Positions 7,789 through 43,700 of a stretch of DNA of 64,000 nucleotides are shown piece after piece. Under the pieces are notes generated by a model. It saw only the letters and a program-made list of their open reading frames with translations, searched no databases and was not told where the DNA came from. The DNA comes from an uncultured Nitrospirota bacterium (lineage in GTDB: Bacteria > Nitrospirota > Nitrospiria > Nitrospirales > UBA8639). The position numbers and the translations under genes were made by a program. The first letter of the stretch is position 1, and the number at the start of each line of letters is the position of its first letter. The stretch is from NCBI GenBank assembly GCA_937139405.1, contig CAKZPV010000004.1:248001-312000 (forward strand), given 5' to 3'.

Positions 7789-9717
7789 TTACTCCACTCG
7801 GACGTTAAATTTCTTCACCCACAGAATGATATTAATCCAGCGCCAAACCTGAGAATCCGACCACGTCCCGCCTTGAAGAATTCCTTCCCACCTTTTAAGC
7901 ACCTCTACCACATTGAAGGCAGGAATAAGGCTGGCCGTCTCACTCGCCAACACTTCACTCACCCAACCTTTTTGGTTCAACAACCAGTCTTTTTCTGGTG
8001 TCGCAAAACCAATTTTATCCTTCCGGTCTAAGATTTGATTCGGCACTATACCTCGCATCGCTTCTCGAAATAATGCCTTCGTGGTTCCTTCTTGCGAAAC
8101 CGCATATTCTTCAGGTAATGAAAACATAAAGTCCACCAAATCAGGCGTAATAAATGGAACACGACTCTCGATAGAATATGCCATTGAATTACGATCTTCG
8201 TACCGCAAAAGGTGAGGCAAGCTTGATTCTATGAGATTGTCAAACAAGCATTCCTTCAGCACCTCTTTCCCGCCTGTATAGCCAAAGCTTTTTGGCATGA
8301 CTTCACGACTTCTGAACCATTGGGCATTGAGCCAAGAAGGCATAAGGTCTTTATTTATACAACGCCTCAAAGGCTCTTGAAGCTTCGTCGGCATAACAAA
8401 ATCCATTGCTCGAAACATTAGGCTCCACTTATTCATGCCCGGCAAACTCGATGCACTTTGCAATAATCTATAGGCATCTACCCACTTGCCTTGACGTACT
8501 AGTGACCCAAATCGCGCTGCGATAAAAAACGTATAACCTCCAAATATTTCATCTGCGCCTTGACCATCAAGCATTACTTTAATTCCTTTTTCACGCGCAT
8601 GTTGAAATATTTGCCGTTGGGCGTAGATACTTGTACTGCCAAAAGGTTCGCCTTGAAGGTACACCAATGCATCTAGGTCATTGACTAATTCTTCTGGGTT
8701 CGATTTGACCTTATGAACGAGTAGCTTTCCGTGATTTCCGACAATATCAATCCACCGCTCTTCACTTATTAATGTATTATCAGCCACATAACTAAACGCA
8801 TGGATATCTAGTCCCTGATGTAGATGGCGCATGGCCATAACAATTGAGGATGAATCAATTCCACCTGAAAGAGCGGCGCCTACAGGAACATCACTGCGAA
8901 GATGAAGAGCGACATTATTGACAAAATGGGTCCTTAACCGATCAGCCGCTTCCTTAAAGGATATATCAGCCTGTTGGTGTAAATTAATCTTCCAAAAGCG
9001 CGTGCACTGAGACCTTTGAGGATTATCTAAGAACACTTCTAAGTAATGTGCGGATGGAAGCTGTTTGATATCTAAAAAAAGAGTCTCACTCCCATGGTCA
9101 GTGATTCCAAAACGAAGATATTCATAGAGCCGTTGAGCATTAACTCGACGACCTGCTCCGGACAATTCCAACAAGGGAGGAATCTCAGAAGCGAATGCAA
9201 ACCCATTCTGAAGCCAGGTATAATAAAGTGGTTTTATGCCGAAAAAGTCCCTCGCAAGAAAAAGCTTCCGTTTCTGAACGTCCAGAAGAGCAAATGCAAA
9301 CATTCCCACCAGACGGGTCAGGACTTCTGCTCCCCATGCTCGGTAGGCTAAAAGTAAAACCTCTGTATCTGAGTCGGAGTAAAATTCATATCCCAAGGCC
9401 TTTAACTCGTCCCTAAGTTCAAGATAGTTATAAATTTCTCCGTTAAACACAAGAAAAAATTTCCTATCAGAAGTTCCCATGGGTTGCCAGCCAGCCTCAG
9501 AGAGGTCCAATATGGATAATCGTTGGTGAAGAAGCATGACTTCGAAGTCCTCATCTGGAAGAGTCTCTCTCCGATATAATGACGCCTGTCCTTTTTTATA
9601 GTACAGTATGCCAGCGTCATCTGGTCCTCGGTGTTCAAGTCCCCTTAGAACATTCCGCATTTTTGCTCGTTCAATAGTTCCAGACGAAGATTGCATCAAT
9701 CCTGCAATGCCACACAT
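7789..9717 (-). CDS. asnB: Glutamine-dependent asparagine synthetase-like amidotransferase (copy 1 of 4)
   Basis: A 642-residue two-domain class II amidotransferase. Cys2 of MCGIAG is the N-terminal nucleophile that releases ammonia from glutamine. FNGEIYNYLEL (about 92-101) keeps the glutamine-binding Asn and Glu. The synthetase domain has the pyrophosphate loop SGGIDSS at 284-290, which binds ATP and activates a carboxylate. Family members make asparagine. In polysaccharide loci, relatives are thought to amidate uronic acids or other carboxylates on the glycan or its precursor, and the surrounding glycosyltransferases favour that reading here. A ligase/polymerase gene lies upstream and a glycosyltransferase downstream. 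Both active sites look intact. Confidence 0.88.
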   Translation of the reverse strand: MCGIAGLMQSSSGTIERAKMRNVLRGLEHRGPDDAGILYYKKGQASLYRRETLPDEDFEVMLLHQRLSILDLSEAGWQPMGTSDRKFFLVFNGEIYNYLELRDELKALGYEFYSDSDTEVLLLAYRAWGAEVLTRLVGMFAFALLDVQKRKLFLARDFFGIKPLYYTWLQNGFAFASEIPPLLELSGAGRRVNAQRLYEYLRFGITDHGSETLFLDIKQLPSAHYLEVFLDNPQRSQCTRFWKINLHQQADISFKEAADRLRTHFVNNVALHLRSDVPVGAALSGGIDSSSIVMAMRHLHQGLDIHAFSYVADNTLISEERWIDIVGNHGKLLVHKVKSNPEELVNDLDALVYLQGEPFGSTSIYAQRQIFQHAREKGIKVMLDGQGADEIFGGYTFFIAARFGSLVRQGKWVDAYRLLQSASSLPGMNKWSLMFRAMDFVMPTKLQEPLRRCINKDLMPSWLNAQWFRSREVMPKSFGYTGGKEVLKECLFDNLIESSLPHLLRYEDRNSMAYSIESRVPFITPDLVDFMFSLPEEYAVSQEGTTKALFREAMRGIVPNQILDRKDKIGFATPEKDWLLNQKGWVSEVLASETASLIPAFNVVEVLKRWEGILQGGTWSDSQVWRWINIILWVKKFNVRVE

Positions 9718-13514: not shown

Positions 13515-15398
13515 TCATAACGATCTACCAAGGAGTGTGCTAACCTTTTCCTGCCGCATCCAAAACTCTAAAATCAACAAATGCCACAGATGGTCGGGTG
13601 CCGTGCCATCCCTCACACTTTGATCTAATTGCCGCAAAGCCACGTCAGCATTTATCCATCCTTCCTTTTGAAGAATCGAGTCATGAAAAGCCGCTTTTGC
13701 TAACGGCAGCCAACGACCCACAATCCAACGCCGAACGGGAATTCCAAACCCTTTCTTGGGCCTATTAGCCACGGTCATTCCAATTTTCTTTTTAGCTAAG
13801 GCACGAAGAATAGCCTTCAAATTCCCCCTATACAGTCGCTGATCAAATGTAAGAGCCGAGGCAAACTCCCAAAGGATATGATCCAAAAAAGGACTCCGAG
13901 CTTCCAGTCCATAATACATGGTAGCCCCGTCAACTTTTGTCAAATACTCGCCTTCAAAACGATTAACACGATCATAATTCAAAACCTTGGACAAAATTTC
14001 ACTTCCCTTATTCTTTGAGTACAATCCTTTTTGATCTTTCGTTCCAACAGGTTGTGTATTCGTAAATCGACCACCCAGCAGGCTTCCTATTTCGTCTTCC
14101 GGTAAATATTCGACCGTCCGAGTGAAAGCGGTGAGGTCTCCAGATGCATAATCTAATAAGGCTGCAGCACGACGAAGAGGCCCAACTCGTGGGACGACTG
14201 ATCCAAACTTAAACCATTGATTGCACAAAGAAATTGGCAACACACCAGATAATTTTCCAGCCAGCCATAAGTGTCGATGTTGAGGATAGCCAAGAAACAC
14301 GTCATCTCCCCCATCACCAGTCAGCAGAACCTTTATGGAAGACGGAATCATCCGCGATACTCTTAACATCCCAAGAGCCGAAGCAGCCCCAAAGGGTTCA
14401 CCGTACGCTGAGATAAGATCATCAATCTCCGGTTCCTCAGCACCAGACATCTCCAAAATATGATGCTGGATTCCCAGAATTTTTGCCGTTTCGATCGCAT
14501 CAGTGGTTTCATCCCACTGATCACCAGGAGTTCCAATTGTATACGCAGTAACATCTGCTTTAAGCTGAGTGATTGCCCAACAAATCAGACTAGAATCAAT
14601 ACCTCCGCTTAATAATGCCGCAATAGGAACATCTGCCTGCAAACGGATCTCTACAGCCTGAAGAAAAATTCGTTCAACTTCTTCAACGATTTCATTAAAT
14701 GATGCACCTGACACTTTTTTTTGTTCGGGACAAACCCAAAACTTCCGTTGAGAAATGCGTCCATCAGACCATTCCACGATGGTACCTTGAGGCACTTTCA
14801 CGACCCCACGATAAATGCCGTGCTCCTGGGAAATAAATCCTAACTCAAGGAATTCTGTAATCGCGTTACCATCAACCTCCGAAAGAAAGCCTGCAACGCG
14901 AAGGGAACGAACTGTAGAGGCAAAAGCCAGAAATCCCTTACCGATAAAATACACTAAAGGTTTAACCCCTAATCGATCGCGCACGAGAAAGAGCTTTCTC
15001 AAACGATTGTCCCAGAGTCCAAAGGCAAACATTCCTCTCAACCTTGAAACAAGACTGTCCACCCCCCATTCGTGATATCCGTGGATCAAGATTTCAGTAT
15101 CAGTATGACTAAGAAATTTATATCCACAACGCTGAAGGTCTTTTCGCAATTCCCGATAATTGTATATCGCACCATTAAACACTACACCCAGGGAATGATC
15201 TTCAGATACGAAAGGTTGCCTTCCTGCATCACTGAGATCAAAGATTGCCAGTCGTCGGTGTCCAAGGATTGCTGTTTCCCAACATTCGATACCTTCACCA
15301 TCCGGTCCTCGTCGGGCAAGTGAATCAATCATCTCTTGAACCACTCCCTCTGTATTGCTCAACTTAATATCTCCAACAATACCGGCAATACCACACAT
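13515..15398 (-). CDS. asnB: Asparagine synthetase-like amidotransferase (copy 2 of 4), altered glutaminase site
   Basis: A 627-residue AsnB-family protein with Cys2 (MCGIAG) and the synthetase pyrophosphate loop SGGIDSS at 263-269. The glutaminase domain reads FNGAIYNYREL at 74-84. In the family this is FNGEIYN, and here the Glu that contacts substrate glutamine is Ala77 (codon GCG on the coding strand). Arg49 and the Asp of SHTDTE remain. This may weaken glutamine binding, shift the enzyme to free ammonia, or reflect a changed role. It is flanked by two GT2 genes downstream and a GT4 gene upstream, so a carboxylate on the glycan is the likely substrate. The remainder of the protein looks complete. 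Confidence 0.86.
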   Translation of the reverse strand: MCGIAGIVGDIKLSNTEGVVQEMIDSLARRGPDGEGIECWETAILGHRRLAIFDLSDAGRQPFVSEDHSLGVVFNGAIYNYRELRKDLQRCGYKFLSHTDTEILIHGYHEWGVDSLVSRLRGMFAFGLWDNRLRKLFLVRDRLGVKPLVYFIGKGFLAFASTVRSLRVAGFLSEVDGNAITEFLELGFISQEHGIYRGVVKVPQGTIVEWSDGRISQRKFWVCPEQKKVSGASFNEIVEEVERIFLQAVEIRLQADVPIAALLSGGIDSSLICWAITQLKADVTAYTIGTPGDQWDETTDAIETAKILGIQHHILEMSGAEEPEIDDLISAYGEPFGAASALGMLRVSRMIPSSIKVLLTGDGGDDVFLGYPQHRHLWLAGKLSGVLPISLCNQWFKFGSVVPRVGPLRRAAALLDYASGDLTAFTRTVEYLPEDEIGSLLGGRFTNTQPVGTKDQKGLYSKNKGSEILSKVLNYDRVNRFEGEYLTKVDGATMYYGLEARSPFLDHILWEFASALTFDQRLYRGNLKAILRALAKKKIGMTVANRPKKGFGIPVRRWIVGRWLPLAKAAFHDSILQKEGWINADVALRQLDQSVRDGTAPDHLWHLLILEFWMRQEKVSTLLGRSL

Positions 15399-18516: not shown

Positions 18517-20478
18517 TCATAAAGTAGCCCTTCGACATCCTACAGAATTTGACAGCAAACCCAGATCCTCTAACCAAAGCGCGGTCGAACAAAGTCTCCA
18601 CAATTTCATAGGATCTCTGTCGAGGAGATTACGATAGTCTCTATTTTCTCCATCTCTGATCCAGAAATTCCCTAGTTGACTCACGAGAGGCTGAAATAGA
18701 TTTCCATGTGCACTAAGAAATTTCTTATACGCAAAAGGGAAACCCATTTTAGTCTTTCGCCAAAGAATTTTTTCTGGCAAATAGGGCTCCATAGCCTTTC
18801 GTAAAATATATTTAGTCCAGCCGTCCTTGAATAAATAACTCACTGGCATCTGAAGCCCAACCTCCATCATGCGATAATCAAAAAATGGAAATCTGTGCTC
18901 AAGAGGAATCGCCATAGTAAAATGATCGTTACTTCTCAAGTAGTAGGGAATTAATCCAATGTTCCAGTGAAAAAAAGTCTGTTTGTGGAAACTCAGTTGA
19001 GGGTACTCCTGTCGATACTGTTCTGCAGTAGTGAGAGCTTCTTTCGATGGGGGCGTTAAGAGTCCCAGTTTACCTGCCAATGGACGCATGAGACTTTTAA
19101 CCCTACGACCTCCACCATACAAAAGGCCCTTCCATCCATCTCTTCGATAGTTTTTCACGAGGTCATAGAATTCTGCATGCCATGTTTGTCCGGATTGCTT
19201 AAGTTCAGCAAATGCCTGAAGCCAAAAATCTCCTTCGTACCCTCCAAGAAGTTCATCTCCCCCTGAACCAGTCAACACAACGGACACGCCAAGATCTTTC
19301 ATTTGCTGTCGCATTTTAAAATGTGTATAGATATTTGGAGAATGAAATGGCTCTTGCATAATCTTTGAAAAAAACTCTCTTTCGGATAAGAAAGAGTCTT
19401 CCGTGTCTAATAACACTCGGTAATCGATTCCAGGATATTTCTCGAGCATGGCTCTAGCATACGGTTCTTCATTTTCTTCTGGAACTTGAATGGTAAACGT
19501 GGTGATATCATTTTTTTTAAGGACTGCTGCAGCCGCGACAATCGAAGAACTATCAAGCCCTCCGCTTAGTTCAAAGGCTACCTTCACATCGGCCCGCAGC
19601 CGTATATCAACCGCATCAAAGAAGGTATCTCGGTACCAGGTCACAGCCTCCTCGAATGAAAGGTCCTTAGGAGTAAATCTTGTTGGAGACAAACACCAAT
19701 ACTGATGGCTTTTAGCATCTTTAACTCTACAGGTTTCTTGAGGAAGGGTTACCACTGTTGCTGGAGAAACACTTTTTATCTGATGATATAATGTAGAATC
19801 ATCAAAATCTTTCATGGAGGTTTGAATAAATCCAACCACTTTGTCCTCATCGACCTCAACGGTTTCTGGCTCAACATCAACAAGGGATTGAATCGAACTG
19901 GAAAAATATAGCCCTTCCTTTGTTTCCCGATAGTATAATGGTGCAACCCCAAGACGATCTCGAGACAAAGAAAAACTCTTGGTTGAAAAATCATAAAGAG
20001 CGATAGCCCAAAAACCATTGAGTTTTGGCCAAATTTGATGACCCCACATTCGATAGCCTTCAATTAACACCTCAGTATCACTTGAAGTTCGAAAAGTTAC
20101 GCCGAGATCAGATAAATCTTTGTGCAATTCAAGAAAATTATAAATTTCACCATTAAATACTATAACAACTGAGCCATCCAAACTCATAAATGGTTGATGG
20201 CCTCCTAAGGAAAGATCAATAATGGAATACCGCGTGTGAATCATGGCCAAATCATGAAGGAGACTTGAGGAACCAACTCTCAAAGGTTCAAGTGACGACT
20301 CAAGCACAGGCAACGTACGCTCCGTTCTATGAAATTTCGCGGTATTATTTTTCCTGGAAATGAGACATACACCTTCATCATCAGGCCCTCGTTCCCGAAT
20401 AGACTTCAACAAATCAGGAACTTGTCGTGAAGCCTCATTAGATGCTGTTTTCAGTAAATATCCAGCAATTCCACACAT
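18517..20478 (-). CDS. asnB: Asparagine synthetase-like amidotransferase (copy 3 of 4)
   Basis: A 653-residue AsnB-family enzyme. Cys2 in MCGIAG is the glutaminase nucleophile and FNGEIYNFLEL keeps the glutamine-binding residues. The synthetase loop is SGGLDSS at 305-311, and GSGGDELLGGYEGDFW is the later ATP-site region. It has a longer insertion (about residues 40-75) before the HTRYSIIDLS segment than the other three copies, and it diverges from them throughout. This argues for independent acquisition or old divergence, not recent duplication. It probably amidates a carboxyl group on a sugar or peptide-like substituent of the polysaccharide. Another copy lies only 126 bases upstream in the same direction. 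Confidence 0.87.
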   Translation of the reverse strand: MCGIAGYLLKTASNEASRQVPDLLKSIRERGPDDEGVCLISRKNNTAKFHRTERTLPVLESSLEPLRVGSSSLLHDLAMIHTRYSIIDLSLGGHQPFMSLDGSVVIVFNGEIYNFLELHKDLSDLGVTFRTSSDTEVLIEGYRMWGHQIWPKLNGFWAIALYDFSTKSFSLSRDRLGVAPLYYRETKEGLYFSSSIQSLVDVEPETVEVDEDKVVGFIQTSMKDFDDSTLYHQIKSVSPATVVTLPQETCRVKDAKSHQYWCLSPTRFTPKDLSFEEAVTWYRDTFFDAVDIRLRADVKVAFELSGGLDSSSIVAAAAVLKKNDITTFTIQVPEENEEPYARAMLEKYPGIDYRVLLDTEDSFLSEREFFSKIMQEPFHSPNIYTHFKMRQQMKDLGVSVVLTGSGGDELLGGYEGDFWLQAFAELKQSGQTWHAEFYDLVKNYRRDGWKGLLYGGGRRVKSLMRPLAGKLGLLTPPSKEALTTAEQYRQEYPQLSFHKQTFFHWNIGLIPYYLRSNDHFTMAIPLEHRFPFFDYRMMEVGLQMPVSYLFKDGWTKYILRKAMEPYLPEKILWRKTKMGFPFAYKKFLSAHGNLFQPLVSQLGNFWIRDGENRDYRNLLDRDPMKLWRLCSTALWLEDLGLLSNSVGCRRATL

Positions 20479-20604: not shown

Positions 20605-22479
20605 TCAAAGATGTTCCATTGATTGTGCTTTCAACGGATGATAATGCTTATCAACCCACAACGCCAAACTCAGGAGCGGCCAAAGGCCCCAAGCAAAATC
20701 ACCTTGCCCACTGAGGTGTAAAGCAAACAGTTTTCGCAACCCGTTTTTGTCTATTCCCAGGCCTAAAAGCTCATCTCGTTTCATCAAAGATTCTTCAATC
20801 ATTTCTCGAAGCGACGTCCTCAGCCATGTTCCCATTGGAACTTCAAAGCCTCGTTTCACCTGTGTTTGATGCGTGGCATACCGTGCGAGAACTCTCCGCA
20901 AGGGAATCTTCCCTATCCCCTGCGGTATATCAAGGCATTCCTTCCAGTCAATTTGCGCTGCGACTTCAATTACTTCACGATCCAATAAAGGCACCCGAAC
21001 CTCTAAAGAATGGTACATACTTGCTCGGTCAACTTTCATCAAGACATAAGGCAGGTGACCAACAAACTCTGTTAATCGAGACTGTTCCGCGGCACGACGC
21101 GATTCACAATTATCATTCTGAAATACTGTATAATCGGTAGGCCATGCCGCCAAGGAAGGAAACACTTGTTTCAACCAAAATTCAGGCAAGTGTGTCAGCA
21201 TACTTCGATGCCAGTCTCCAAGTGAGCTATGAGTAAGATAAGGATTTGACAGTCTTTTCCTGGAAAATTTTTGAAAAGCCCTTCCTAACCATCGATACCA
21301 TAGGGGAGTCCGAAATTCTTCAGCCCTTCCTACAAGTGGCCCAAATCGGCTCAAGTATCCCCAAAATAATTCATCACCGCCATCACCCGATAACATCACC
21401 TTGTATTTCTGACTTGCCATTCGTGAAACCATCATGGTTGGAAACATGGAATAATCTCCAAATGGCTCTCCACACGCATCAATTACATCGTCAATAAAAT
21501 CAAGAGATTGGGACGGCATCATGGTTTCAATAGTATGCTTGACACCCAATTCTCTTGCAAAAGCCCCAGCATCACCTGTCTCATCAGTCGCTTCTTCACC
21601 CGTTCCTATTGTAAAAGCTTCGATGACCGAGCTTTTCGCCGCACGCATCTTGGCCACAACTAAAGGGGAGTCGACTCCACCTGAGAGAAATGTACCAACC
21701 GGCACATCACTGACCATGTGTCGCTTCACTGCCGCCGATGTAACCGCATCAACAGCATCAATGGCATCACGACCTTTCAGCCTCGTCATTTCATATTGAG
21801 GAAATTGATAAAAGATCCCTTCCTGTAATTTCCTCTCTGCATTACATCTTATCCATGTTCCTGGTTTAAGCATGTACGAATCTTCTAATATGCCATATGG
21901 TGCAGGAACATAAGCCAAACGCAAGTAGAGGCCTAAAGCCTCTTGGGAAATATCAAGATCATGACTGAGAGGGTGGGCTAATAATTGATTATATTGTGAA
22001 GCAAACACGATTCCCTTTGGTCTTATCAGGTAATACAGAGGTTTGATGCCTGCATGATCACGTGCCAGCAATAATCGTCTTTCCACAGAATCATAAAAAG
22101 CCAAGGCAAACATGCCATTAAAACGTTCCAGTGCCTTGTTTCCCCATTCAATTAATGCATGTAATACCACTTCACTGTCACTGGTCGAACGAAACTGTAC
22201 CCCCCGGCTTTCTAATTCATGACGCAATTCTTGAAAGTTATACACCTCACCATTAAACACCAGTACAAAACGACCGTTACCAACAGTCATTGGCTGATGC
22301 CCCATAGGGCTCAAGTCAATAATGGCCAATCGACGAAACACTAACGTACAACCTTTATCATCCGTCCAGATACCTGAATCATCAGGTCCACGACGAGCCA
22401 TCAACGCGCTAATTGAATCCCAGTCCGCCTTGCGTCCTGCTGGGCTTGTAAATAATAATTCTCCGGCTATTCCGCACAT
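20605..22479 (-). CDS. asnB: Asparagine synthetase-like amidotransferase (copy 4 of 4)
   Basis: A 624-residue AsnB-family protein. Cys2 (MCGIAG), the Arg49-Arg50 pair and FNGEVYNFQEL give an intact glutaminase site. The synthetase loop is SGGVDSP at 266-272, where the last Ser of the usual SGGxDSS is Pro, a variant seen in amidotransferases outside primary asparagine metabolism. LSGDGGDELFWGY follows in the second ATP-binding region. It stands between a phosphonopyruvate-decarboxylase-like gene upstream and another AsnB copy downstream. Amidation of a glycan carboxylate is the likely role, but free asparagine synthesis by one of the four copies cannot be excluded. Confidence 0.87.
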   Translation of the reverse strand: MCGIAGELLFTSPAGRKADWDSISALMARRGPDDSGIWTDDKGCTLVFRRLAIIDLSPMGHQPMTVGNGRFVLVFNGEVYNFQELRHELESRGVQFRSTSDSEVVLHALIEWGNKALERFNGMFALAFYDSVERRLLLARDHAGIKPLYYLIRPKGIVFASQYNQLLAHPLSHDLDISQEALGLYLRLAYVPAPYGILEDSYMLKPGTWIRCNAERKLQEGIFYQFPQYEMTRLKGRDAIDAVDAVTSAAVKRHMVSDVPVGTFLSGGVDSPLVVAKMRAAKSSVIEAFTIGTGEEATDETGDAGAFARELGVKHTIETMMPSQSLDFIDDVIDACGEPFGDYSMFPTMMVSRMASQKYKVMLSGDGGDELFWGYLSRFGPLVGRAEEFRTPLWYRWLGRAFQKFSRKRLSNPYLTHSSLGDWHRSMLTHLPEFWLKQVFPSLAAWPTDYTVFQNDNCESRRAAEQSRLTEFVGHLPYVLMKVDRASMYHSLEVRVPLLDREVIEVAAQIDWKECLDIPQGIGKIPLRRVLARYATHQTQVKRGFEVPMGTWLRTSLREMIEESLMKRDELLGLGIDKNGLRKLFALHLSGQGDFAWGLWPLLSLALWVDKHYHPLKAQSMEHL

Positions 22480-22665: not shown

Positions 22666-23814
22666 TTACGACGTCCCGAGAAACGACATAAAGCGAGCCT
22701 TTACTTCATGAGGCTTCAATGTTGGTCTGGGAAGAGAGCTTGGAACCCCTGGCATGATACGTACATGAATAAAGGTTGGACCATTTTCTGACGTGGCAAC
22801 GCAGAGGGCCTGTTCAAGCGCTAATGGCGAGAAAACTGATTGGCTTCTCTTATACCCACAAGCTTGGGCGACACGGTCGAAAGCAATGGTATTGGACAAT
22901 GTACCTTGCCCTCCAGTCGACTCATGAACTTGGTTGTCCAGTACGACATGGATAAGATTAGAAGGCCGAAAGTGTCCAATAGAGGCCATCGCTTCCATTC
23001 TCATGAGTGCGGCTCCATCTCCATCCAAGACAATCACTTTCCGTGTGTCAGGCAAATGAGACGCCAACCCCAATCCCACTGATGAGGCTCCTCCCATGGC
23101 CCCAACTATATAGAGATGGTTGGGAGAATCTCGATAGGCGAATAATTCTCGATTGGTGAAACCGGTCGTGCCAACAATGATAACGTCTTCTCCCAACATA
23201 TCACAGATAAGGCGAATCACATCCCCTCGTTGCATGAGGGCAGACCCGAACTCCCGTTCCTCTAACTGACCGTCTGGTGAACGTGCTGGCAAAGTTTTAC
23301 TGATTAAGGCATAGGACTCCACGATATCTTTTGGCATAATCAACGCGTACGGGAGGCTACTCTCCTGGCTTTTCATTACGGCTCGATCCAACAACAGCCG
23401 TATGGCTTTTGGATCCTCCGGCATAATTTCATTCTCCACTTCCATCAAGGAAAACATATTGAGGGTGATCGGACCCATGAGTTCATGTTGCGGTTCATCG
23501 GAAATACCCGGTTGTGCACGCCATGTACAGACGATCAATAACGGGATTCGCAGAGGATAGGCTAGTGAAACCAACGGATTGACTGCATTCCCAAGTCCTG
23601 AATTTTGAAACATGACCACCGGTCGCTTGCCAGCCAAATACGCTCCACATGCATATGCGATAGCTTCTCCTTCATTGGTGAGGGGGACATAAAACACGCT
23701 CTCATCATCAATCACATAATTGATAAAAGGTTTCAAAAACGAGCAAGGAACCCCCGTGTAAAGATCGAGACCTAACTGTCTGCCATGCTCAATAAAAATT
23801 GAAGGATGAAACAT
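22666..23814 (-). CDS. aepY: Phosphonopyruvate decarboxylase-like ThDP enzyme
   Basis: A 382-residue thiamine-diphosphate enzyme with both ThDP domains. The Pyr half has YTGVPCSFLKPFIN and VPLTNEGEAIAYACGAYLAG with the activating Glu. The PP half has VLDGDGAALMRMEAMASIG and, about 27 residues on, LDNQVHESTGGQGT, the GDG...N motif that binds Mg-diphosphate. GVPCSxLK and the NxxHESxGGQ pattern are typical of phosphonopyruvate decarboxylase, which turns phosphonopyruvate into phosphonoacetaldehyde. The related sulfopyruvate decarboxylase is the main alternative. No PEP mutase or aminoethylphosphonate transaminase is present in this window, so the substrate must come from elsewhere or differ. A methyltransferase gene lies 76 bases upstream. 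Confidence 0.8.
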   Translation of the reverse strand: MFHPSIFIEHGRQLGLDLYTGVPCSFLKPFINYVIDDESVFYVPLTNEGEAIAYACGAYLAGKRPVVMFQNSGLGNAVNPLVSLAYPLRIPLLIVCTWRAQPGISDEPQHELMGPITLNMFSLMEVENEIMPEDPKAIRLLLDRAVMKSQESSLPYALIMPKDIVESYALISKTLPARSPDGQLEEREFGSALMQRGDVIRLICDMLGEDVIIVGTTGFTNRELFAYRDSPNHLYIVGAMGGASSVGLGLASHLPDTRKVIVLDGDGAALMRMEAMASIGHFRPSNLIHVVLDNQVHESTGGQGTLSNTIAFDRVAQACGYKRSQSVFSPLALEQALCVATSENGPTFIHVRIMPGVPSSLPRPTLKPHEVKARFMSFLGTS

Positions 23815-25014: not shown

Positions 25015-26307
25015 CTATGTATGTTGAATTTCGTCACGGATACGCAACAATTCGTTTGCCGAAGAGTTCGCCGCACGTGAAAAATTAGCGATGGACTTAT
25101 CTCGCAATTGACGGATCGTTTCTCTTTTGTCTTTTTTGCCAATTTCTTGGTGAATGATTTCTGAAATTTTATCCAAATCACTCTCACAAATTTGTTGCCC
25201 AATTGTATTAAGCACTGATAATTCCCAAGGATCCCATGGCAAATCCGAACCATCCATCCCAACCCAGTTGAAATCATATTTCATCGTAATGACAGGTTTC
25301 TCAAAGAGGAAGGCAAAATCAAAAATGACACCTGATAGGTCAGACACCATCACATCAGCCCTTGCCATAGATTGTACTCCATCACTTTCATCGTCCCATT
25401 CAAGGTTAGAATAAGCTTTAGTCTCTTCACGAAGATTGTTCAACATATCTTTTTCCGAGATAGAACTTTGTGGGTGAGGCCGCAAAATTACCTTCCATTC
25501 CTTCTCCAATAAGGGAATGAGCACTCTGGACCCAAATTTCTTCAGTAGTCCGTTCATCCCCCAAGTTGGCGCAACCAGTACGATCGTCTGGTTTTCAGGT
25601 TTTGGAGTAGACTCTAGTTCCTTTAATCGACTTGCCATATCATCATAATAGAGACACCCCGTTTTCAGAAGGAGCTTTTGAGGTGTGTCTCTTAGTTCCT
25701 CAAGCTTTCTAATTGATTTATCTTGGTGATCTCCGCTGGTGAAAATCGAATCGAAGTAATCGAACGAGTATTGCTTGTACGTGGCCATATCGGTAGGGGC
25801 ATGCATCAAATAGGCGTAATGTTTCACACCTTTTGAGCGTTTAATTTGTAGCACATCCAGGCCAGGGGTTGTCATCACACACATATCAGCTTCCAAAATT
25901 GTCAGATAGGCATAGGCCTTTGTACCTGAACCAATGTACTTTGTGGTCACAAGCTCAGAAGAATACAAGAGCCCTGGATCTTCCTCATCGGAAGACAAAT
26001 AGACGCATTCTGCTCCACGACTGACGAGCTCATCAATTATTGGTTTAAAGGTATTCCAGTAGAATCGGCCCTCCGAATAGAACACCAGAGCTTGCCCCAT
26101 CTGGTCATCCTCGACTGTTCTTCCAAACAATCCGAATACACCACTTCTGATTTTGTAGTAAAGGCCTTTGAAGAAAAAGAGCAGTGTTGCTAATAAACCC
26201 ACCAGGGCGGAAACGAGCATACTCCCTGAACCCGGATCCAAGTATGCAAACGCCGTCCCAGAAAATATGGTGAGAAGCAAACACCAAACAAGCAATATCA
26301 TTTTCAT
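25015..26307 (-). CDS. Membrane-anchored CDP-glycerol glycerophosphotransferase-like protein
   Basis: A 430-residue protein. Residues 1-25 are a signal or anchor sequence followed by YLDPGSGSMLVSALVGLL and a transmembrane segment to about residue 52. This YLDPGxGS opening recurs in small membrane proteins of polysaccharide clusters. The cytoplasmic part has the Glyphos_transf (TagB/TagF) fold: HAPTDMATY, a VAPTWG segment, RPHPQSS, and VSDLSGVIFDFAFLFEKPVI near residue 335. Family members transfer glycerol- or ribitol-phosphate from CDP-alditol to a lipid-linked acceptor. A similar polyol-phosphate transfer to the glycan is plausible. No CDP-glycerol synthase is visible in the window. The YidC/sulfatase-like fusion gene lies 341 bases upstream. 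Confidence 0.8.
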   Translation of the reverse strand: MKMILLVWCLLLTIFSGTAFAYLDPGSGSMLVSALVGLLATLLFFFKGLYYKIRSGVFGLFGRTVEDDQMGQALVFYSEGRFYWNTFKPIIDELVSRGAECVYLSSDEEDPGLLYSSELVTTKYIGSGTKAYAYLTILEADMCVMTTPGLDVLQIKRSKGVKHYAYLMHAPTDMATYKQYSFDYFDSIFTSGDHQDKSIRKLEELRDTPQKLLLKTGCLYYDDMASRLKELESTPKPENQTIVLVAPTWGMNGLLKKFGSRVLIPLLEKEWKVILRPHPQSSISEKDMLNNLREETKAYSNLEWDDESDGVQSMARADVMVSDLSGVIFDFAFLFEKPVITMKYDFNWVGMDGSDLPWDPWELSVLNTIGQQICESDLDKISEIIHQEIGKKDKRETIRQLRDKSIANFSRAANSSANELLRIRDEIQHT

Positions 26308-26648: not shown

Positions 26649-28982
26649 TCAATGAATGAAACCCTTCTCAATCATAGGTGACAGGATTGTTCCGTCATGC
26701 ACCGCCTCAACCAAAATACTCCCCTCGCCTCCGCCCTTAGTCAAATAGCCATCATCAGGAACTTTTGTTTCCAGGATTGCTTCGCTTTCACTTAAATAAG
26801 AAAAAATGTATCGAAATAAATTTATATTGGTTCGTATTTTTTGATCATATTTGGGGATATCATTTGGCCACCGGATGGCTAATAAAACTCCTAGATGATC
26901 CAATGCAATCAACTCTTCAGGTACATTTTTAAATGTTGTCTTGTCAAAGTATTTATAGGCACCGTACCCCCACGCCCCATGATCACCGTTGATAATAATC
27001 AAAGCCTGAGGATCCTTGCTTAGGATTCGTTGAATAATCTTCGTTAATTCTTCATTTGCAGTTTTGACTTTCTTGCCATAATTTTTACGGAAAGTAGCCA
27101 ATTCCTCGACTGTTTGCTTCAACGTATGACTATGATTGGGAAATGCCATATGAGCATACACAACATGAGGTATCTCCTGCTCCGCTATCAAATCGATGTG
27201 ACTAAGAAACCTTTCCATGAGTCCAGGATGGAAACGTTCTTTCATCGTTGCAAAGACAGATGATGATTGCACCCTCCCGGGAAGCAAGATATCCATGAAT
27301 TCGCCTAAAAAAACACTAGGGGAACATAGATCAACAAAACACCCTGAAGTAAAGAGCCATTCATCATCGTGCACATAATGAACTTGATAACCATTGTTCT
27401 TAAAAATACGCATGACCGGATTTTGATTACTCACAATAAATTCTCTTGAATATAATAACTCAAAATTTCCAACACTCCCTCGGTAAAAATGATGTTGCAT
27501 GCCAAACATTGCGCTCATTGATGACAGCGTACTTCTATAGTTGCTAAAAACAGATGGATATTTCGTAAAATTCCATGAATCCAATTGACGGTCAAAGTCG
27601 ATGTTCGCAATATGAAATATTTTGTCTAATGCTTCTTGATTGGGGTATCCATCCGGGACAATATAGTAAACGTTGGGCTTTTTTATAAATTTTATCTGAT
27701 CATACAAGGCCTGGCGTAATTCATCTTCTCCTTTATCGACCAGAGTCGTCGCCTTTGCAGTCATGCTCGATACCAAGCCATTACCCAGAAGAAAGACACA
27801 CATGATCACCAAAACAATATTCACCCTAACTATTTGTATTTTATGAATAAACCAGGCCAACATAATTGCCGCGAGCATAACGAGACCAGCAAAAACGAGG
27901 TACTGATTCTCTAGCATTTCCAAAAAAGTATGCCTCAGCAGATACGCCAGGACTACAGTGGCAACCAAGACAAAAAGCCTCTGTATGATTATCACTGGAT
28001 TATTCGTAATATACTTTTTAATCAACCAGGAGAGCCCGACATAATAGAGGCTCAGACTAATGAGTACGACAAAGGTAAAGATACAGAAAATGAGGACTCC
28101 TTGAGAGGCTTTGAACATAAACCAATTATTACTAATATAAAATAACGCAGGGTATGCTCCAACCAATAGGGCCAAGGTATAGGGGCTCTCAAAGATCTTC
28201 TGAAACAATGCCTGAGACATGACTTGAGCATGATAAGGGGCCGCTATCACTTGCGATTGTGGCCCTTTTCGCTTCTGAAACACTGAGGCCTTCAACTCTT
28301 TTGACCGAAGTTCTATTTTCTGTAATAAATTGAGTTGATCGTAAGCCATGATCCGAAGCAACGAAAAAACACTATTTAAGGTCCAGTAAAGAAGAAGTCC
28401 CGCTGGTGAGTTATAAAGCAAAATCAGGAAGCATAAGGAAATCAACAAAGGTTGCAACTGATCGACAAGACTAAATTTTTTAGTATAGACAAATGCAGCA
28501 GCCAAATTTGCAGCTGTCATCGCAAAGGGCAGTACATTAATTCCCCATAGAATGCTGTCAGGCTTACCGAGATCTTCAATAAGTAAAAAAGAATGTCCCT
28601 GCAATGGTTGATAATGAGAGAGAAATTGGTAAGCCGCTATCCAGAAAGGAAGTTGCAAGAGAAGCCCAACACTGCTTCTCATAGCATAAATTGGGTGGTA
28701 GCCCATTTGACGATATAAGGTCTGCACCATGCTATGGCGCTCTTCTCCAGAAAACGCCTTTCGGAATTCTTGGAGTTTTGGCTTCAAGATACTCTGGACC
28801 TGTCGTTCAGCTTCTTGCCAACGTTCAGCAATATGAAAGAGCGGGAGAAGGACTAAATTAAGGAGAAAACTGAGGAGAAAAATAGAAATGCCATAATCCC
28901 CACTGACAGAATAAGTTGCTGACAAGACAACTTGCATGACAGCTTCTATGGGAGAAATAAAAATTTGGTAAAGTATACTCAT
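26649..28982 (-). CDS. YidC/Oxa1-like membrane domain fused to a sulfatase/phosphoglycerol-transferase-like domain
   Basis: A 777-residue protein. Residues 1-215 match the YidC/Oxa1/Alb3 core: SIFLLSFLLNLVLLPL aligns with its first core helix, followed by the cytoplasmic helical hairpin (about 50-95), LQLPFWIAAYQFL, and NSPAGLLLYWTLNSVFSLL for the last helix. In true insertases an Arg sits in the first core helix; here the aligned residue is Asn42. Residues about 265-410 add four or five more membrane segments. From about 435 comes an alkaline-phosphatase-superfamily domain: NVYYIVPDGY (metal-binding Asp444), SNYRSTLSSMSAMF (likely nucleophile Thr485) and INGDHGAWG (metal ligands Asp667, His668). 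The superfamily includes lipoteichoic-acid synthase and phosphoethanolamine transferases. A periplasm-facing phospho-substituent transferase on a repurposed YidC scaffold is the best guess. Confidence 0.82.
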   Translation of the reverse strand: MSILYQIFISPIEAVMQVVLSATYSVSGDYGISIFLLSFLLNLVLLPLFHIAERWQEAERQVQSILKPKLQEFRKAFSGEERHSMVQTLYRQMGYHPIYAMRSSVGLLLQLPFWIAAYQFLSHYQPLQGHSFLLIEDLGKPDSILWGINVLPFAMTAANLAAAFVYTKKFSLVDQLQPLLISLCFLILLYNSPAGLLLYWTLNSVFSLLRIMAYDQLNLLQKIELRSKELKASVFQKRKGPQSQVIAAPYHAQVMSQALFQKIFESPYTLALLVGAYPALFYISNNWFMFKASQGVLIFCIFTFVVLISLSLYYVGLSWLIKKYITNNPVIIIQRLFVLVATVVLAYLLRHTFLEMLENQYLVFAGLVMLAAIMLAWFIHKIQIVRVNIVLVIMCVFLLGNGLVSSMTAKATTLVDKGEDELRQALYDQIKFIKKPNVYYIVPDGYPNQEALDKIFHIANIDFDRQLDSWNFTKYPSVFSNYRSTLSSMSAMFGMQHHFYRGSVGNFELLYSREFIVSNQNPVMRIFKNNGYQVHYVHDDEWLFTSGCFVDLCSPSVFLGEFMDILLPGRVQSSSVFATMKERFHPGLMERFLSHIDLIAEQEIPHVVYAHMAFPNHSHTLKQTVEELATFRKNYGKKVKTANEELTKIIQRILSKDPQALIIINGDHGAWGYGAYKYFDKTTFKNVPEELIALDHLGVLLAIRWPNDIPKYDQKIRTNINLFRYIFSYLSESEAILETKVPDDGYLTKGGGEGSILVEAVHDGTILSPMIEKGFIH

Positions 28983-29310: not shown

Positions 29311-30186
29311 CTAACCTTTCAGTTCTAGTTCTGGACCATCCATTGGTGTTAACTCATCAAACTCTCCATATTTATCGTGATCAAACATGTGTGCTAGGAA
29401 AACTTTTTTTACCCACACTTGATCAAAGTGATTTTTTGGCAATGCCCAGGGTAATCCAGGAATCGACGAGATTTTTCTCATCTCATGAGATGCATTGAAG
29501 TCTGCTATGGCTAATCGTTCACCCGTAAAATCACACTTGGTGGGACCCATAATATCGTCAAAATAACACCAAATTCTGGGAAGTAACATATCCTGCGCAC
29601 CATCAAAAATCTTAAATGCATCCATTGATGCCGTATAATAATCTAGATCATCGGACATAAAAGCGATTGGGGCAGGCTTGGAGCGAATAAAATCATCAAT
29701 GGTATTTTCCACTAACCCGAGAATAAGCTGTGCTTTCTGCAAACGTTTTCGTAGTTTCTCAATATCCATTCCACATTGAGATTCGCCATAAACATTTGGC
29801 AAGTCACGATACCCATCTGGCGCAGGAAGACCCATCCCAGTATCAAATCCATAGATATCCACTTCCACGCCAAAAACCGGCTCAATAACTTTGACAATCT
29901 CTTCCAACGCCACCAAACCATTTCCCCCAGCCACACCAAACTCAATGGCTGAAACACGTTTAATACCAAGCGCTCTAGCCAAATTGACTCCTTGCATGAC
30001 TCCCCAAGTGTAATGAGGCCTCCAATCACTTCCTAGAATCTTTGGGAACAACACATGATTTAACCATTGATAACTATACTCCTTGGGGAGCGGACCCTTT
30101 TGAGCAGCGACGCCATTATTCTCTTCCTGCAACCAATTTCGCGTTGCATGTGCAACTTTTCTGACAATTTTTTTCACCATCACCAT
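29311..30186 (-). CDS. TylF/macrocin-O-methyltransferase-like protein
   Basis: A 291-residue class I methyltransferase-fold protein. VSAIEFGVAGGNGLVALEE is the SAM motif I region (about residue 83), YGFDTGMGLPAPDGYRDLP carries the acidic loop of the next strand, and FMSDDLDYYTASMDAFKIF is the metal- and substrate-binding block. This pattern occurs in TylF-like O-methyltransferases and in similar proteins next to glycan genes. It should O-methylate a sugar hydroxyl, perhaps as a chain-capping step, but the substrate is not known. The gene for an APH-like kinase ends 182 bases upstream in the same direction. Confidence 0.7.
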   Translation of the reverse strand: MVMVKKIVRKVAHATRNWLQEENNGVAAQKGPLPKEYSYQWLNHVLFPKILGSDWRPHYTWGVMQGVNLARALGIKRVSAIEFGVAGGNGLVALEEIVKVIEPVFGVEVDIYGFDTGMGLPAPDGYRDLPNVYGESQCGMDIEKLRKRLQKAQLILGLVENTIDDFIRSKPAPIAFMSDDLDYYTASMDAFKIFDGAQDMLLPRIWCYFDDIMGPTKCDFTGERLAIADFNASHEMRKISSIPGLPWALPKNHFDQVWVKKVFLAHMFDHDKYGEFDELTPMDGPELELKG

Positions 30187-31949: not shown

Positions 31950-33329
31950 TTAGGATTTCATCCCCTTATCAGTGGTGACAGAACCTACTACTGAAGAAGG
32001 CTCCATTGGAGTTACTTGGGTCTCCCATTTTAATAGAGGCCTGATTATCCCAGGGAAATCTCCAGTAAAATCGACCCGTGCACCCTGCCCGTCCATGCTA
32101 TCAACGACTTGCATACCCACGATCTCATTCACACTGAACCGTTTCAACTCCGGATTGAGAGTTCTAATTCCAGCACCAACAAAATGCATCCCCTCCGAAA
32201 GCAAATTTCCAGGAATCCACGCGGTACTCACATAACGACCAGGAGGACGAATTCTCTTTCGCCAAGCCTGATCATTATCAAGAGATGTAAACACTTCTAT
32301 CCCTTCTTCGTTTATGAGATGGAAGTAAATTTTAAATTCATATCCATTCTGTAACACCAAATATTCTATTTCAAGACCAACGGGGCCACTGATATCTACT
32401 GCTTCAGTAACAAGCTTATCCCTTGTCCTAACACGAACGGAAGAGAGTCTAACCACCTCATCACCAGGAGCCTCCAATGGCTCAGGCCATATTCGTTCTC
32501 CCTTTGTCGCCTTTCCAGCCTGCAAATAGGCACTCACAACTCGATGCGAGACATCATCGATTTCTACTCTACCTCCATTTAGAAGAATGACCCTCGGACA
32601 CAATCGAGTGACCGCTGGCATGCTATGAGATACAAAAAGTACAGTGCGTCCGTTTCTCCCAACATCTTGCATTTTTTCAATACATTTCTTCTGAAATTGA
32701 GCGTCCCCCACGGCCAGCACTTCATCGACGAGCAATATTTCTGGTTCTAAATGAGCCGCGACAGCAAACGCTAAGCGTACTCTCATGCCGCTTGAATAGC
32801 GTTTTACTGGTGTTTCAAGAAATTTTTCTACACCTGAAAAATCAACGATTTCGTCGAACTTCTGATCGATCTCATTCTTTCTCATCCCTAAGATGGTCCC
32901 GTTGAGATACACATTTTCCCGGCCCGTCAGTTCAGGATGAAACCCGGTACCAACCTCTAAGAGGCTGGAAACTCTTCCCCGAATGCCAATTCTTCCACTA
33001 GTTGGGACGGTAATTTTGGACAATACCTTCAGAAGAGTAGATTTTCCAGCACCATTGAGGCCAATAATGCCAACCACCTCACCTTTCTGTATATCAAAAG
33101 AAACATCTTTTAAAGCCCACAGGATATCCGAGCGATCATCACTTTGGTCAAAATTGACATCATCAAATTTATAGAGAGATCGATGAGTACGAAAATTCTT
33201 GAATGGGCTTTTCATAAAGTTGAGTAATGTGCCACAAAGATTATCGTGCATTTGTTCTTTGAAACCAATGCGATAGCATTTGGAGATATGCTCTACTTTA
33301 ATGGCAAGATCTTTGTTATTCATTGTCAC
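31950..33329 (-). CDS. wzt: Polysaccharide ABC exporter ATPase with C-terminal glycan-binding domain
   Basis: A 459-residue ABC ATPase of the Wzt/TagH type. Residues 1-270 carry the nucleotide-binding domain: Walker A GLNGAGKST (90-98), signature YSSGMRVRLAF (about 178-188) and Walker B ILLVDEVLAVGD (198-209), with the extended N-terminus typical of O-antigen exporters. Residues about 285-440 form a beta-rich Wzt_C-like domain (VGLEIEYLVL, FKIYFHLINEEG, ISGPVG). In several systems this domain binds the modified non-reducing end of the finished glycan before export. Its presence suggests that export depends on a terminal cap, which the nearby methyltransferase and kinase could make. The permease gene lies 153 bases upstream. 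Confidence 0.92.
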   Translation of the reverse strand: MTMNNKDLAIKVEHISKCYRIGFKEQMHDNLCGTLLNFMKSPFKNFRTHRSLYKFDDVNFDQSDDRSDILWALKDVSFDIQKGEVVGIIGLNGAGKSTLLKVLSKITVPTSGRIGIRGRVSSLLEVGTGFHPELTGRENVYLNGTILGMRKNEIDQKFDEIVDFSGVEKFLETPVKRYSSGMRVRLAFAVAAHLEPEILLVDEVLAVGDAQFQKKCIEKMQDVGRNGRTVLFVSHSMPAVTRLCPRVILLNGGRVEIDDVSHRVVSAYLQAGKATKGERIWPEPLEAPGDEVVRLSSVRVRTRDKLVTEAVDISGPVGLEIEYLVLQNGYEFKIYFHLINEEGIEVFTSLDNDQAWRKRIRPPGRYVSTAWIPGNLLSEGMHFVGAGIRTLNPELKRFSVNEIVGMQVVDSMDGQGARVDFTGDFPGIIRPLLKWETQVTPMEPSSVVGSVTTDKGMKS

Positions 33330-33482
33330 TTCCTAGCAGAATAAAAATGTCCAACAACGGTATTTCAGTTTTTTACTAGAAGCTTCTACTACTGCCTATA
33401 CCCCAATTTACTAGTTGCAGGAAGAAGGCGAGAAACGTTTTTTCCTTCGAAATATTTTTTAATGCCCTGTCTATGTTGGCAT

Positions 33483-34358
33483 TTAAATAACATCTACGAT
33501 AAGACGTTCCATGCGTTTAAAATAGAACGCCCCACTAACCAGAAGAAACAGAGCTGTGAATATGCCAGGACAGACATACATCCAGGGTATAGGGGTTCCA
33601 AGTAAACAGGATCGGAACCCTTCAATGACGCCTACAATCGGGTTCAGTGAGTAAACAATACGATATATTCCTGGCACCGATGATGCTGAATAAACAATCG
33701 GTGCACTATACATGAGCATTTGAATAAAAAACGGCATTGCGTGCTTAACATCACGAAACCGAATGGCTAGCGAAGATAACCATAAGCCTATCCCTAGCGG
33801 AATTGACATCATCAAAATAAAAAACATGGGGAGAAACAATAAATTCCATGTAGGAGAAATTCGATAGTACACCATGAGACACATGATTATGCCCATGGCA
33901 ATCCCAAAATCAACCAACTTGGATAAAATTGGAGAAACAGGGTACAGCAATCTCGGAAAATAAATTTTTCCAAGCATACTCGAGCCCTGAATAAGACTTT
34001 GACTAGCTTGGGTCATACTTTGAGACATATACGTCCAAGGGATAATAGCCACGCTGGAAAATAAAATATAGGGGATACCATCTGTATTCACTTTGGCAAT
34101 GGCCCCAAAAATGATCGAGAATAAAACAATTTGAATCAGTGGCAAAAGGACCGCCCAGGAAAACCCCAAAATGGTCTGGGCATATAACACTTTAATATCA
34201 CGCCAAACTAAAAAGAAAAAGAGATCTCGATATTGAATCAACTCCTTGAAATCAATCATTTGCCATCCGTTATTCGGCTGAATAATGGATAATGAATCCG
34301 CTGGAGAAGCCGCGACAGTCGTCTCACTCATTGCTGTGTCCATCATTTCGTTTGCCAT
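33483..34358 (-). CDS. wzm: Polysaccharide ABC exporter permease
   Basis: A 291-residue ABC-2-type permease. After a cytoplasmic N-terminus (about 50 residues) come six predicted membrane segments, including FSWAVLLPLIQIVLFSIIFGA, IAMGIIMCLMVYY, FFILMMSIPLGIGLWLSSL and ICPGIFTALFLLVSGAFYF-like stretches. The element SLNPIVGVIEGFRSCLLG before the last helix is the conserved Wzm/KpsM/TagG signature. With the ATPase encoded next to it, it would flip the undecaprenyl-linked glycan across the cytoplasmic membrane. It lies 64 bases after an FAD-dependent oxidoreductase gene. Confidence 0.92.
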   Translation of the reverse strand: MANEMMDTAMSETTVAASPADSLSIIQPNNGWQMIDFKELIQYRDLFFFLVWRDIKVLYAQTILGFSWAVLLPLIQIVLFSIIFGAIAKVNTDGIPYILFSSVAIIPWTYMSQSMTQASQSLIQGSSMLGKIYFPRLLYPVSPILSKLVDFGIAMGIIMCLMVYYRISPTWNLLFLPMFFILMMSIPLGIGLWLSSLAIRFRDVKHAMPFFIQMLMYSAPIVYSASSVPGIYRIVYSLNPIVGVIEGFRSCLLGTPIPWMYVCPGIFTALFLLVSGAFYFKRMERLIVDVI

Positions 34359-40756: not shown

Positions 40757-43700
40757 TTAAGTGGGATACGTGTAGTCGACAAAGAACCATGTACTACCCG
40801 AACCTGCGCGATACCACAGGCGCACGTACACCGGATTCCCATTGATGGGAATGCCCGTCACTAATTGAGAAGTATTCGCGCCCACGTTTAGGGAAAAGAT
40901 ATCACCCCACGGCGAATTCGCCACCGAGGCTTGACTTGTCCCAACTCCAAGATAAAACTCACCCCATCCCACCCCGGGATCCCATTGAAAAGTCACGGAC
41001 GAGGTCGTGATTGGAGTGCTGGGGACTGGAGTGGTCATACTCGGAATCCCACTCCCACCACCACCAACCGTAATCATCACTGTCGCTGGCGTCGGATCGG
41101 CCAGCGGCGGGCTAGCTGCATCCGTCACCGTATAGGTCACGGTAAACGTCCCTGCCGTATTAAACTGCACTGGCCCAGGATCTTCTTGCGTCGAATTGGC
41201 CACGCCCGAGCCGGCCCCAAAGGTCCATAAATGGGTCAGCGGCAAATTATTATCTGGATCCGTCCCCGTGCCGTTAAAGGTCACCGAGTCGCCGGCATTA
41301 ATCGTCTGCGGACCCGCCGGCAGATCGATCACTCCATTCGGGGCTTGATTACCCGTCCCGGTGGGGTACGTGTAGTCGATAAAGAACCACGGATTGCCGG
41401 ATCCTGCCACGCGATACCACAGGCGCACATACACCGGATTCCCATTGATGGGAATACCCGTCACCAATTGGGAGGTATTCGCGCCCGTGGAATTGGCAAA
41501 GATATCCCCATAGGGCGAATTCGCTACCGAGGCCTGGCTCGTTCCGACCCCTAACCAATATTCTCCCCACCCGACCCCGGGCGTCCAGTCAAAGGTCACC
41601 GAAGAGGTCGTGATCGGAGTGCTGGGGACCGGAGTGGTCATACTCGGGATTCCACTCCCACCACCAACCGTAATCTCCACTGTCGCTGGCGTCGGATCGG
41701 CCAACGGCGGGCTAGCTGCATCCGTCACCGTATAGGTCACGGTAAACGTCCCTGCCGTGTTAAACTGCACCGGCCCAGGATCTTCCTGCGTCGAATTGGC
41801 CACGCCCGAGCCGGCCCCAAAGGTCCATAAATGGGTCAGTGGCAAATTATTATCTGGATCCGTCCCCGTGCCGTTAAAGGTCACCGAGTCGCCGGCATTG
41901 ATCGTCTGCGGACCCGCCGGCAGATCAATCACTCCATTCGGGGCTTGATTAGCAGGACCGCCTCCATCACTTTCCTGCAACCGCACAGCACTGCCATATT
42001 TTCCTCTGAATTCCTCGCCTGCAGCCCCGTTAAAACTGATAGTCAGCACGACATCGCCATCGGGACCAGGATCAATAGCATTAAAGCGGGCGACATATCC
42101 GTTATTATTATCTGAAGGCAGACGCGTAGAGGTATCGGTTGGCCCAGTAAAGAGCACCCCGTTTGTTTCATCAGGATTGTCATTTGCGAAGGAACTGACA
42201 TTCGAAAAGGCATCATGATCAGAGATTGTTACTAAGGAAGCACGATCCCAATCGTCAACGGGAGCAACAACACGGTCACGATCGGAGAAAAATGTCACAT
42301 CATAAACCTTATTCGGATTCATACCCGAAAAAGTCAGCACTAAATTATTGGCGGCTGAATCGACATAACTGATGACGCCTTGGCCAGTAACAATCTGATC
42401 AAAAATAGCCAGAGCATCTCCGGATGTTGGGTTGACACCCTGTGCAGCATTAGCAACTCCATCATAGGTTCCACCCGTTATCGACAACATTACAGAAGTC
42501 GTCAGACCAGTCGCAAAATCAACCAGTAGTCCACTTGAATTTAATCCTGAATTCCCCACGGGCGACGTAAGCGTCGTGATCCTCGTGCTCAATTGCGTCG
42601 CTTCCCATGCTAGATCATTGTATGCCGTAAAATTTTCTATCGTGCCTTGCTGCGTGGGATATGTGTAGTCGACAAAGAACCATGTACTACCCGAACCTGC
42701 GCGATACCACAGGCGCACGTACACCGGATTCCCATTGATGGGAATGCCCGTCACTAATTGAGAAGTATTCGCGCCCACGTTTAGGGAAAAGATATCACCC
42801 CACGGCGAATTCGCCACCGAGGCTTGACTTGTCCCAACTCCAAGATAAAACTCACCCCATCCCACCCCGGGATCCCATTGAAAAGTCACGGACGAGGTCG
42901 TGATTGGAGTGCTGGGGACTGGAGTGGTCATACTCGGAATCCCACTCCCACCACCACCAACCGTAATCATCACTGTCGCTGGCGTCGGATCGGCCAGCGG
43001 CGGGCTAGCTGCATCCGTCACCGTATAGGTCACGGTAAACGTCCCTGCCGTATTAAACTGCACTGGCCCAGGATCTTCTTGCGTCGAATTGGCCACGCCC
43101 GAGCCGGCCCCAAAGGTCCATAAATGGGTCAGCGGCAAATTATTATCTGGATCCGTCCCCGTGCCGTTAAAGGTCACCGAGTCGCCGGCATTAATCGTCT
43201 GCGGACCCGCCGGCAGATCGATCACTCCATTCGGGGCTTGATTACCCGTCCCGGTGGGGTACGTGTAGTCGATAAAGAACCACGGATTGCCGGATCCTGC
43301 CACGCGATACCACAGGCGCACATACACCGGATTCCCATTGATGGGAATACCCGTCACCAATTGGGAGGTATTCGCGCCCGTGGAATTGGCAAAGATATCC
43401 CCATAGGGCGAATTCGCTACCGAGGCCTGGCTCGTTCCGACCCCTAACCAATATTCTCCCCACCCGACCCCGGGCGTCCAGTCAAAGGTCACCGAAGAGG
43501 TCGTGATCGGAGTGCTGGGGACCGGAGTGGTCATACTCGGGATATTTGACGTATCTTGAACCGTAATGTTGACGGTATCATTGCCCATCAGGACAGAGTC
43601 ATTCGCTTCCAACTGCAGCACATAATTCCCCTCAAGACTAAAACTTACTGTCGTATCCACAACACTTGGATCTGCAAAGGTTACTGTCCCAGGTCCAGAC

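Follow-up and report, generated by a model that had tools for sequence, protein, structure and literature searches.

A rare three-gene envelope module in Nitrospirales containing a YidC-like domain fused to an alkaline-phosphatase-superfamily domain

The fusion gene and its domains

The window (the whole stretch of 64,000 nucleotides analysed here) carries a surface-polysaccharide island with a Wzt/Wzm-like exporter, glycosyltransferases, four AsnB-like amidotransferases, sugar nucleotide genes, and a phosphonopyruvate decarboxylase. A gene in this island, P0001, codes for a protein in which a YidC/Oxa1-like domain is followed by additional membrane helices and by a domain of the alkaline-phosphatase superfamily (Table 1). 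A sequence-only reading had described it as one uninterrupted frame of 777 codons. The frame indeed contains no stop, and it runs from 28982 to 26649, on the minus strand, which the sequence-only reading did not mention. The residue numbers given there (N42, D444, T485, D667, and H668) are all correct in the translated frame.

Pfam profile PF02096 matched residues 30-210 of the fusion (E 3e-20, 73 bits; Pfam cut-off 35), and the best matches by sequence among solved structures were two entries for B. halodurans YidC2 (3wo6/3wo7; E 5e-10, fusion residues 11-210). These matches bear out the YidC/Oxa1 core previously placed at about residues 1-215. The score with the NCBIfam YidC core profile, TIGR03592, was 76.4 bits, below the cut-off of 84.3. 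The assignment of the second half to the alkaline-phosphatase superfamily was upheld by a match to PF00884 over residues 475-729 (E 2e-8, 34.5 bits; Pfam cut-off 25). Hydropathy analysis revealed the YidC helices and then about five more at residues 264-410, in agreement with the extra membrane helices proposed earlier. Since an odd number of helices follows a cytosolic end, the catalytic half is predicted to face outward, and a tally of loop charges agrees. An AlphaFold2 model of the full fusion, built from the single sequence, had a pLDDT of 39, too low for the model to be used. A model of residues 1-217 built from a three-row alignment had a pLDDT of 55, and its best seven Foldseek matches were all YidC, a result that is partly circular because the alignment held two canonical YidCs.

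Table 1. Coordinates of the genes, domains and residues discussed (window positions unless a locus is named)
Feature	Position	Strand	Evidence or remark
Phosphonopyruvate decarboxylase, outside the conserved module	22666..23814	-	TIGR03297, 412 bits (cut-off 312.5); not next to the module in G041 and G183
Partner 2, class I SAM methyltransferase, 275 aa	23891..24718	-	PF05175, E 3.5e-9
Partner 1, PF04464 (CDP-glycerol glycerophosphotransferase family), 430 aa, N-terminal membrane hairpin with YLDPGSGS	25015..26307	-	PF04464, E 4e-11, partial
Fusion gene P0001, YidC-like domain, membrane helices and alkaline-phosphatase-superfamily domain, 777 aa	26649..28982	-	Open frame; Pfam matches to both domains; same fusion in G183 and G041
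Alkaline-phosphatase-superfamily domain, predicted extracytoplasmic, residues 434-777	26652..27683	-	PF00884; invariant D444, T485, D667 and H668
Asp667-His668 codons, putative metal ligands	26979..26984	-	Invariant in ten homologues
Thr485 codon, putative nucleophile	27528..27530	-	Invariant in ten homologues
Asp444 codon, putative metal ligand	27651..27653	-	Invariant in ten homologues
Extra membrane helices, about five, residues 264-410	27753..28193	-	Hydropathy and loop charges, prediction only
YidC/Oxa1-like domain, residues 1-217	28332..28982	-	PF02096, 3wo7, identity among four copies
Asn42 codon, groove position that is Arg/Lys in YidC	28857..28859	-	Asn in four of four YidC-like copies
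Wzt/Wzm-like polysaccharide ABC exporter, two genes (31950-33329 and 33483-34358), outside the conserved module	31950..34358	-	NCBIfam matches below equivalog cut-offs
About 460-aa protein next to free-standing catalytic relatives	L064 5824-7203; L065 7620-9029; L067 10782-12176; L025 5938-7641		46-66% identity

Occurrence of the fusion and its partner genes

Of 236 genomes surveyed in the same order, three carry the YidC-like domain, and 396 genomes sampled from the phylum contained no further carriers. One of the other two carriers, G183, is a one-contig chromosome from another family of the order and codes for a full-length fusion (47-48% identity, query residues 1-770). In the other, G041, a YidC-like domain 75% identical over residues 1-217 is fused to a catalytic half of another, more distantly related type. 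G183 also contains a second YidC-like gene, the end of which overlaps by GTGA with a distinct catalytic gene; the product of the latter and the G041 half are 53% identical. A profile comparison (E 2e-9), which runs co-linearly across the D, T, and DH sites, shows the two catalytic types to be related. While the split pair in G183 could conceivably be a frameshift of one gene, the finding of the two parts joined in some cases and encoded by overlapping genes in another strongly indicates that they work jointly.

The sequence-only reading named as a possible refutation the joining of two genes through an error of assembly or sequencing. The window does come from a draft assembly (51 contigs, another of which is eukaryotic contamination), but the same fusion runs end to end in the single-contig chromosome of G183, and in G041 the YidC-like domain is joined to the other catalytic type. 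These independent fusions rule out a misjoining, to which we assign a negligible probability. The contaminating contig was recognised by its rRNA: the sole small-subunit rRNA found in the window's assembly (G000 contig C21, 3395-5300) is eukaryotic and has 5.8S and large-subunit rRNA alongside. The window's own contig is bacterial in appearance.

Across G041 and G183, the only constant neighbours of the fusion were a PF04464 protein and a SAM methyltransferase, and no other obvious glycan genes were seen beside them in either genome. The PF04464 partner (63-66% identical in G041 and G183) was present in three of 236 genomes, namely those with the YidC-like domain, and the methyltransferase partner (68-73% identical) in the same three of 396; the genes of the module lie adjacent every time. 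Partner 1 is akin to the TagB/TagF-like PF04464 transferases in that it matches part of the family, and differs from them in that the match is partial and an N-terminal membrane hairpin is added. We conclude that the fusion and its two partners are a real, rare three-gene envelope module, which provides a unit for study. The module, the split gene pair, and the second catalytic type are all new relative to the sequence-only reading.

Only one of the 21 genomes searched from the window organism's own genus carries the module, which suggests that it is accessory and probably mobile. No relative of the YidC-sulfatase protein was found in the viral contigs scanned. The sole match of the contig scan (L004) was rejected as a false positive, a large unrelated protein with the common peptide WPNDIPKY. 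As the scan used peptides of one sequence and missed known relatives, carriers may exist in other phyla. A search of the open-access literature found no YidC-sulfatase or YidC-LtaS protein.

Conservation of the two halves

The YidC-like domain is homologous to the YidC/Oxa1/Alb3 insertases over the five-helix core and the cytosolic hairpin, and is unlike them in its groove residue, its sub-cut-off NCBI core score, and its attached enzyme. A domain usually deemed specific to insertases can thus form part of an enzyme, and automatic labels that read "membrane protein insertase YidC" would be misleading for such genes. Each of the three genomes codes for one separate canonical YidC, to which the YidC-like domain is only 23-26% identical. 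Among the four copies, the YidC-like domain is 67-77% identical, about the same conservation as that of the canonical YidC core in the same three genomes (71-82%), whereas the catalytic halves are 42-53% identical. Invariant residues extend over much of the domain and include the cytosolic hairpin region (residues ca. 50-100) and polar sites that line the groove, such as Asn42.

Alignment to E. coli YidC confirmed that Asn42 takes the place of the insertase Arg. The groove residue is Asn in each of the four YidC-like copies; it is Lys in the canonical YidCs that these genomes encode and Arg in E. coli YidC. The sequence-only reading had argued from the missing Arg that insertase function was lost, and this argument is unsupported. 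Trp200 of the fusion corresponds to position 517 of E. coli YidC, so the copies pair Asn with Trp, and E. coli YidC carrying R366N or R366A complements fully if Trp or Phe occupies that position (PMC8920935). Streptococcus mutans YidC2 also has Trp at this position, yet requires its Arg (PMC8920935). Asn42 therefore marks the domain as unusual but does not settle its role.

In the catalytic half, Asp444, Thr485, Asp667, and His668 were invariant in ten aligned homologues, among them the two fused types as well as free-standing relatives from Chloroflexota, Gemmatimonadota, and the order to which the window belongs. Their invariance suggests that the catalytic half is probably an active enzyme. 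The formylglycine sulfatase motif Cys/Ser-x-Pro-x-Arg is absent at the nucleophile site, which reads SNYRSTLSSMSAM. When profiles were compared with those of 17 E. coli proteins, OpgB alone gave a signal, which was weak but co-linear (probability 44%, P 2e-4); the remaining sixteen gave P values of 0.06 or worse. OpgB is a phosphoglycerol transferase. As in OpgB and LtaS, an outward domain of the alkaline-phosphatase superfamily is predicted to come after membrane helices; unlike them, the fusion carries an additional YidC-like domain. The first metal ligand, Glu in LtaS and OpgB, is Asp in our alignment of the fusion. E. coli EptA has the superfamily and the overall layout in common with the fusion, and the profile comparison with EptA gave no similarity outside the DHG motif (P 0.17 over 29 columns). 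Judged by these comparisons, the catalytic half is probably a phosphotransferase or phosphodiesterase of the alkaline-phosphatase superfamily, and we assign it to none of the LtaS, OpgB, or EptA groups. In general terms, the envelope phosphotransferase or phosphatase proposed earlier is supported, and the gene context fits it; the platform that would feed a lipid or glycolipid to the enzyme, also proposed there, is a conjecture.

The free-standing relatives of the catalytic half (Leptolinea BCY19513.1, Gemmatirosa, G024, G026, and G031) are membrane "sulfatase-like" proteins of 519-598 residues. They share a homologous catalytic half with identical D, T, and DH residues, but lack the YidC domain, which indicates that in general the chemistry can proceed without it. 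At four loci (G024, G026, G031, and Gemmatirosa), the relative adjoins a conserved protein of about 460 residues with a methyltransferase-like C-terminal domain, whose Pfam score is weak and under the cut-off; such a neighbour was not among the annotated genes next to the Leptolinea relative. The recurrence of a methyltransferase through two unrelated-looking proteins suggests a methylated substrate in the pathway. By our guess, the first half of the 460-residue protein contains a kinase-like motif, and the protein may be a kinase-methyltransferase of the WbdD kind.

A possible pathway and its alternatives

We tentatively favour a reading, to which we give somewhat less than even weight, in which the fusion acts as a phosphotransferase on a glycan or lipid of the envelope, with the YidC-fold domain presenting or moving its lipid substrate. 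The fusion, the PF04464 transferase, and the SAM methyltransferase would belong to a single pathway. On the inner face of the membrane, the two partners would make a methylated, lipid-linked polyol-phosphate or sugar unit. The groove of the YidC-fold domain, its general insertase role lost, would let the lipid head group cross to, or reach, the outer leaflet. The enzyme would reside in the inner membrane and act beyond the cytoplasmic membrane, as a phosphotransferase or a phosphodiesterase, and its catalytic domain would then hand the unit to an acceptor by means of Thr485 and a metal site. We infer the topology, the substrate, the direction of flow, and the role of the groove in transport.

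Several observations favour this reading. The fusion is found in independent genomes, and in one of them the two parts also occur as an overlapping pair. The catalytic residues are invariant, and the partner genes are confined to the same three genomes, where the module genes lie adjacent. A separate canonical YidC is present in all three, and conservation of the YidC-like domain is on a par with that of the canonical core and higher than that of the catalytic halves. The likeness to OpgB, weak as it is, and the methyltransferase-like neighbours of the free-standing relatives at four loci point the same way. The weakness of the OpgB match, groove residues that still permit insertase function, the existence of catalytic relatives without the YidC domain, and the sub-cut-off score of the methyltransferase domain in the partners of the free-standing relatives all count against it.

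The transport step taken by itself is more doubtful, and we think it rather unlikely. It is suggested by the ability of E. coli YidC, yeast Oxa1, and other insertases to scramble lipids in vitro (PMC10491306), together with the lack of any other flippase within the three-gene module. With a YidC-fold domain fused to, or encoded in a gene overlapping that of, a predicted outward lipid- or glycan-modifying enzyme, the relevance in cells of scrambling observed in vitro becomes a question that can be tested in a small three-gene system. That a fold of the Oxa1 superfamily has left protein insertion, and now moves a lipid-linked methylated envelope precursor across the membrane for the extracytoplasmic transferase to which it is directly linked in the same polypeptide, is in our view unlikely. 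If true, lipid scrambling, an ability of insertases, would here be the physiological function in nature.

The conservation of the YidC core would also be expected of a dedicated insertase or chaperone that inserts or folds the fused catalytic membrane half or the PF04464 partner and has no role with lipids. In E. coli YidC, the combination of Asn and Trp still permits insertase function (PMC8920935), and the co-encoded PF04464 partner bears a membrane hairpin at its N-terminus. However, related catalytic halves occur without a YidC-like domain, each genome already has a canonical YidC, the score lies under the NCBI YidC core cut-off, and S. mutans YidC2 requires its Arg in the presence of Trp (PMC8920935); we consider a dedicated insertase unlikely, with an appreciable chance of being correct. 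Were the domain a mere docking or dimerising platform that keeps the enzyme by its partners, with no transport, the wide spread of invariant residues would be accounted for, the cytosolic hairpin being a possible docking surface, but a simple anchor would not need invariant polar sites in the groove such as Asn42, and this explanation appears improbable. The direction of the chemistry may also be the reverse of that in the favoured reading. The alkaline-phosphatase superfamily includes hydrolases and the likeness to OpgB is weak, both consistent with a phosphatase or phosphodiesterase that removes a group, trimming or recycling a lipid carrier or an envelope phosphoester. The enzyme travels, however, with genes of a biosynthetic type (PF04464 and methyltransferase), and we assign group removal a low probability.

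Other features of the window and its surroundings were also recorded. The four AsnB-like glutamine amidotransferases (7789-9717, 13515-15398, 18517-20478, and 20605-22479) are an unusual number for one glycan island and suggest a polymer in which several sugars or amino acids are amidated. Immediately upstream of the fusion, a protein of 291 residues (29311-30186) has by eye the look of a TylF-type methyltransferase, and gave no Pfam or NCBIfam match. A protein of 1505 residues (40757-45274) with purple-acid-phosphatase and PKD domains is probably a large secreted metallophosphatase. The adjoining phosphonopyruvate decarboxylase prompted us to consider a link between the module and phosphonate synthesis. 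This link was rejected as not specific, since PEP mutase is widespread in the order (over the cut-off in 143 of 236 genomes) and the module stands elsewhere without these genes. From the same count, phosphonate synthesis seems to be common among members of the order. About 10 kb past the end of the window, a PEP mutase is fused to a MobA-like nucleotidyltransferase domain (L052, 9697-11397).
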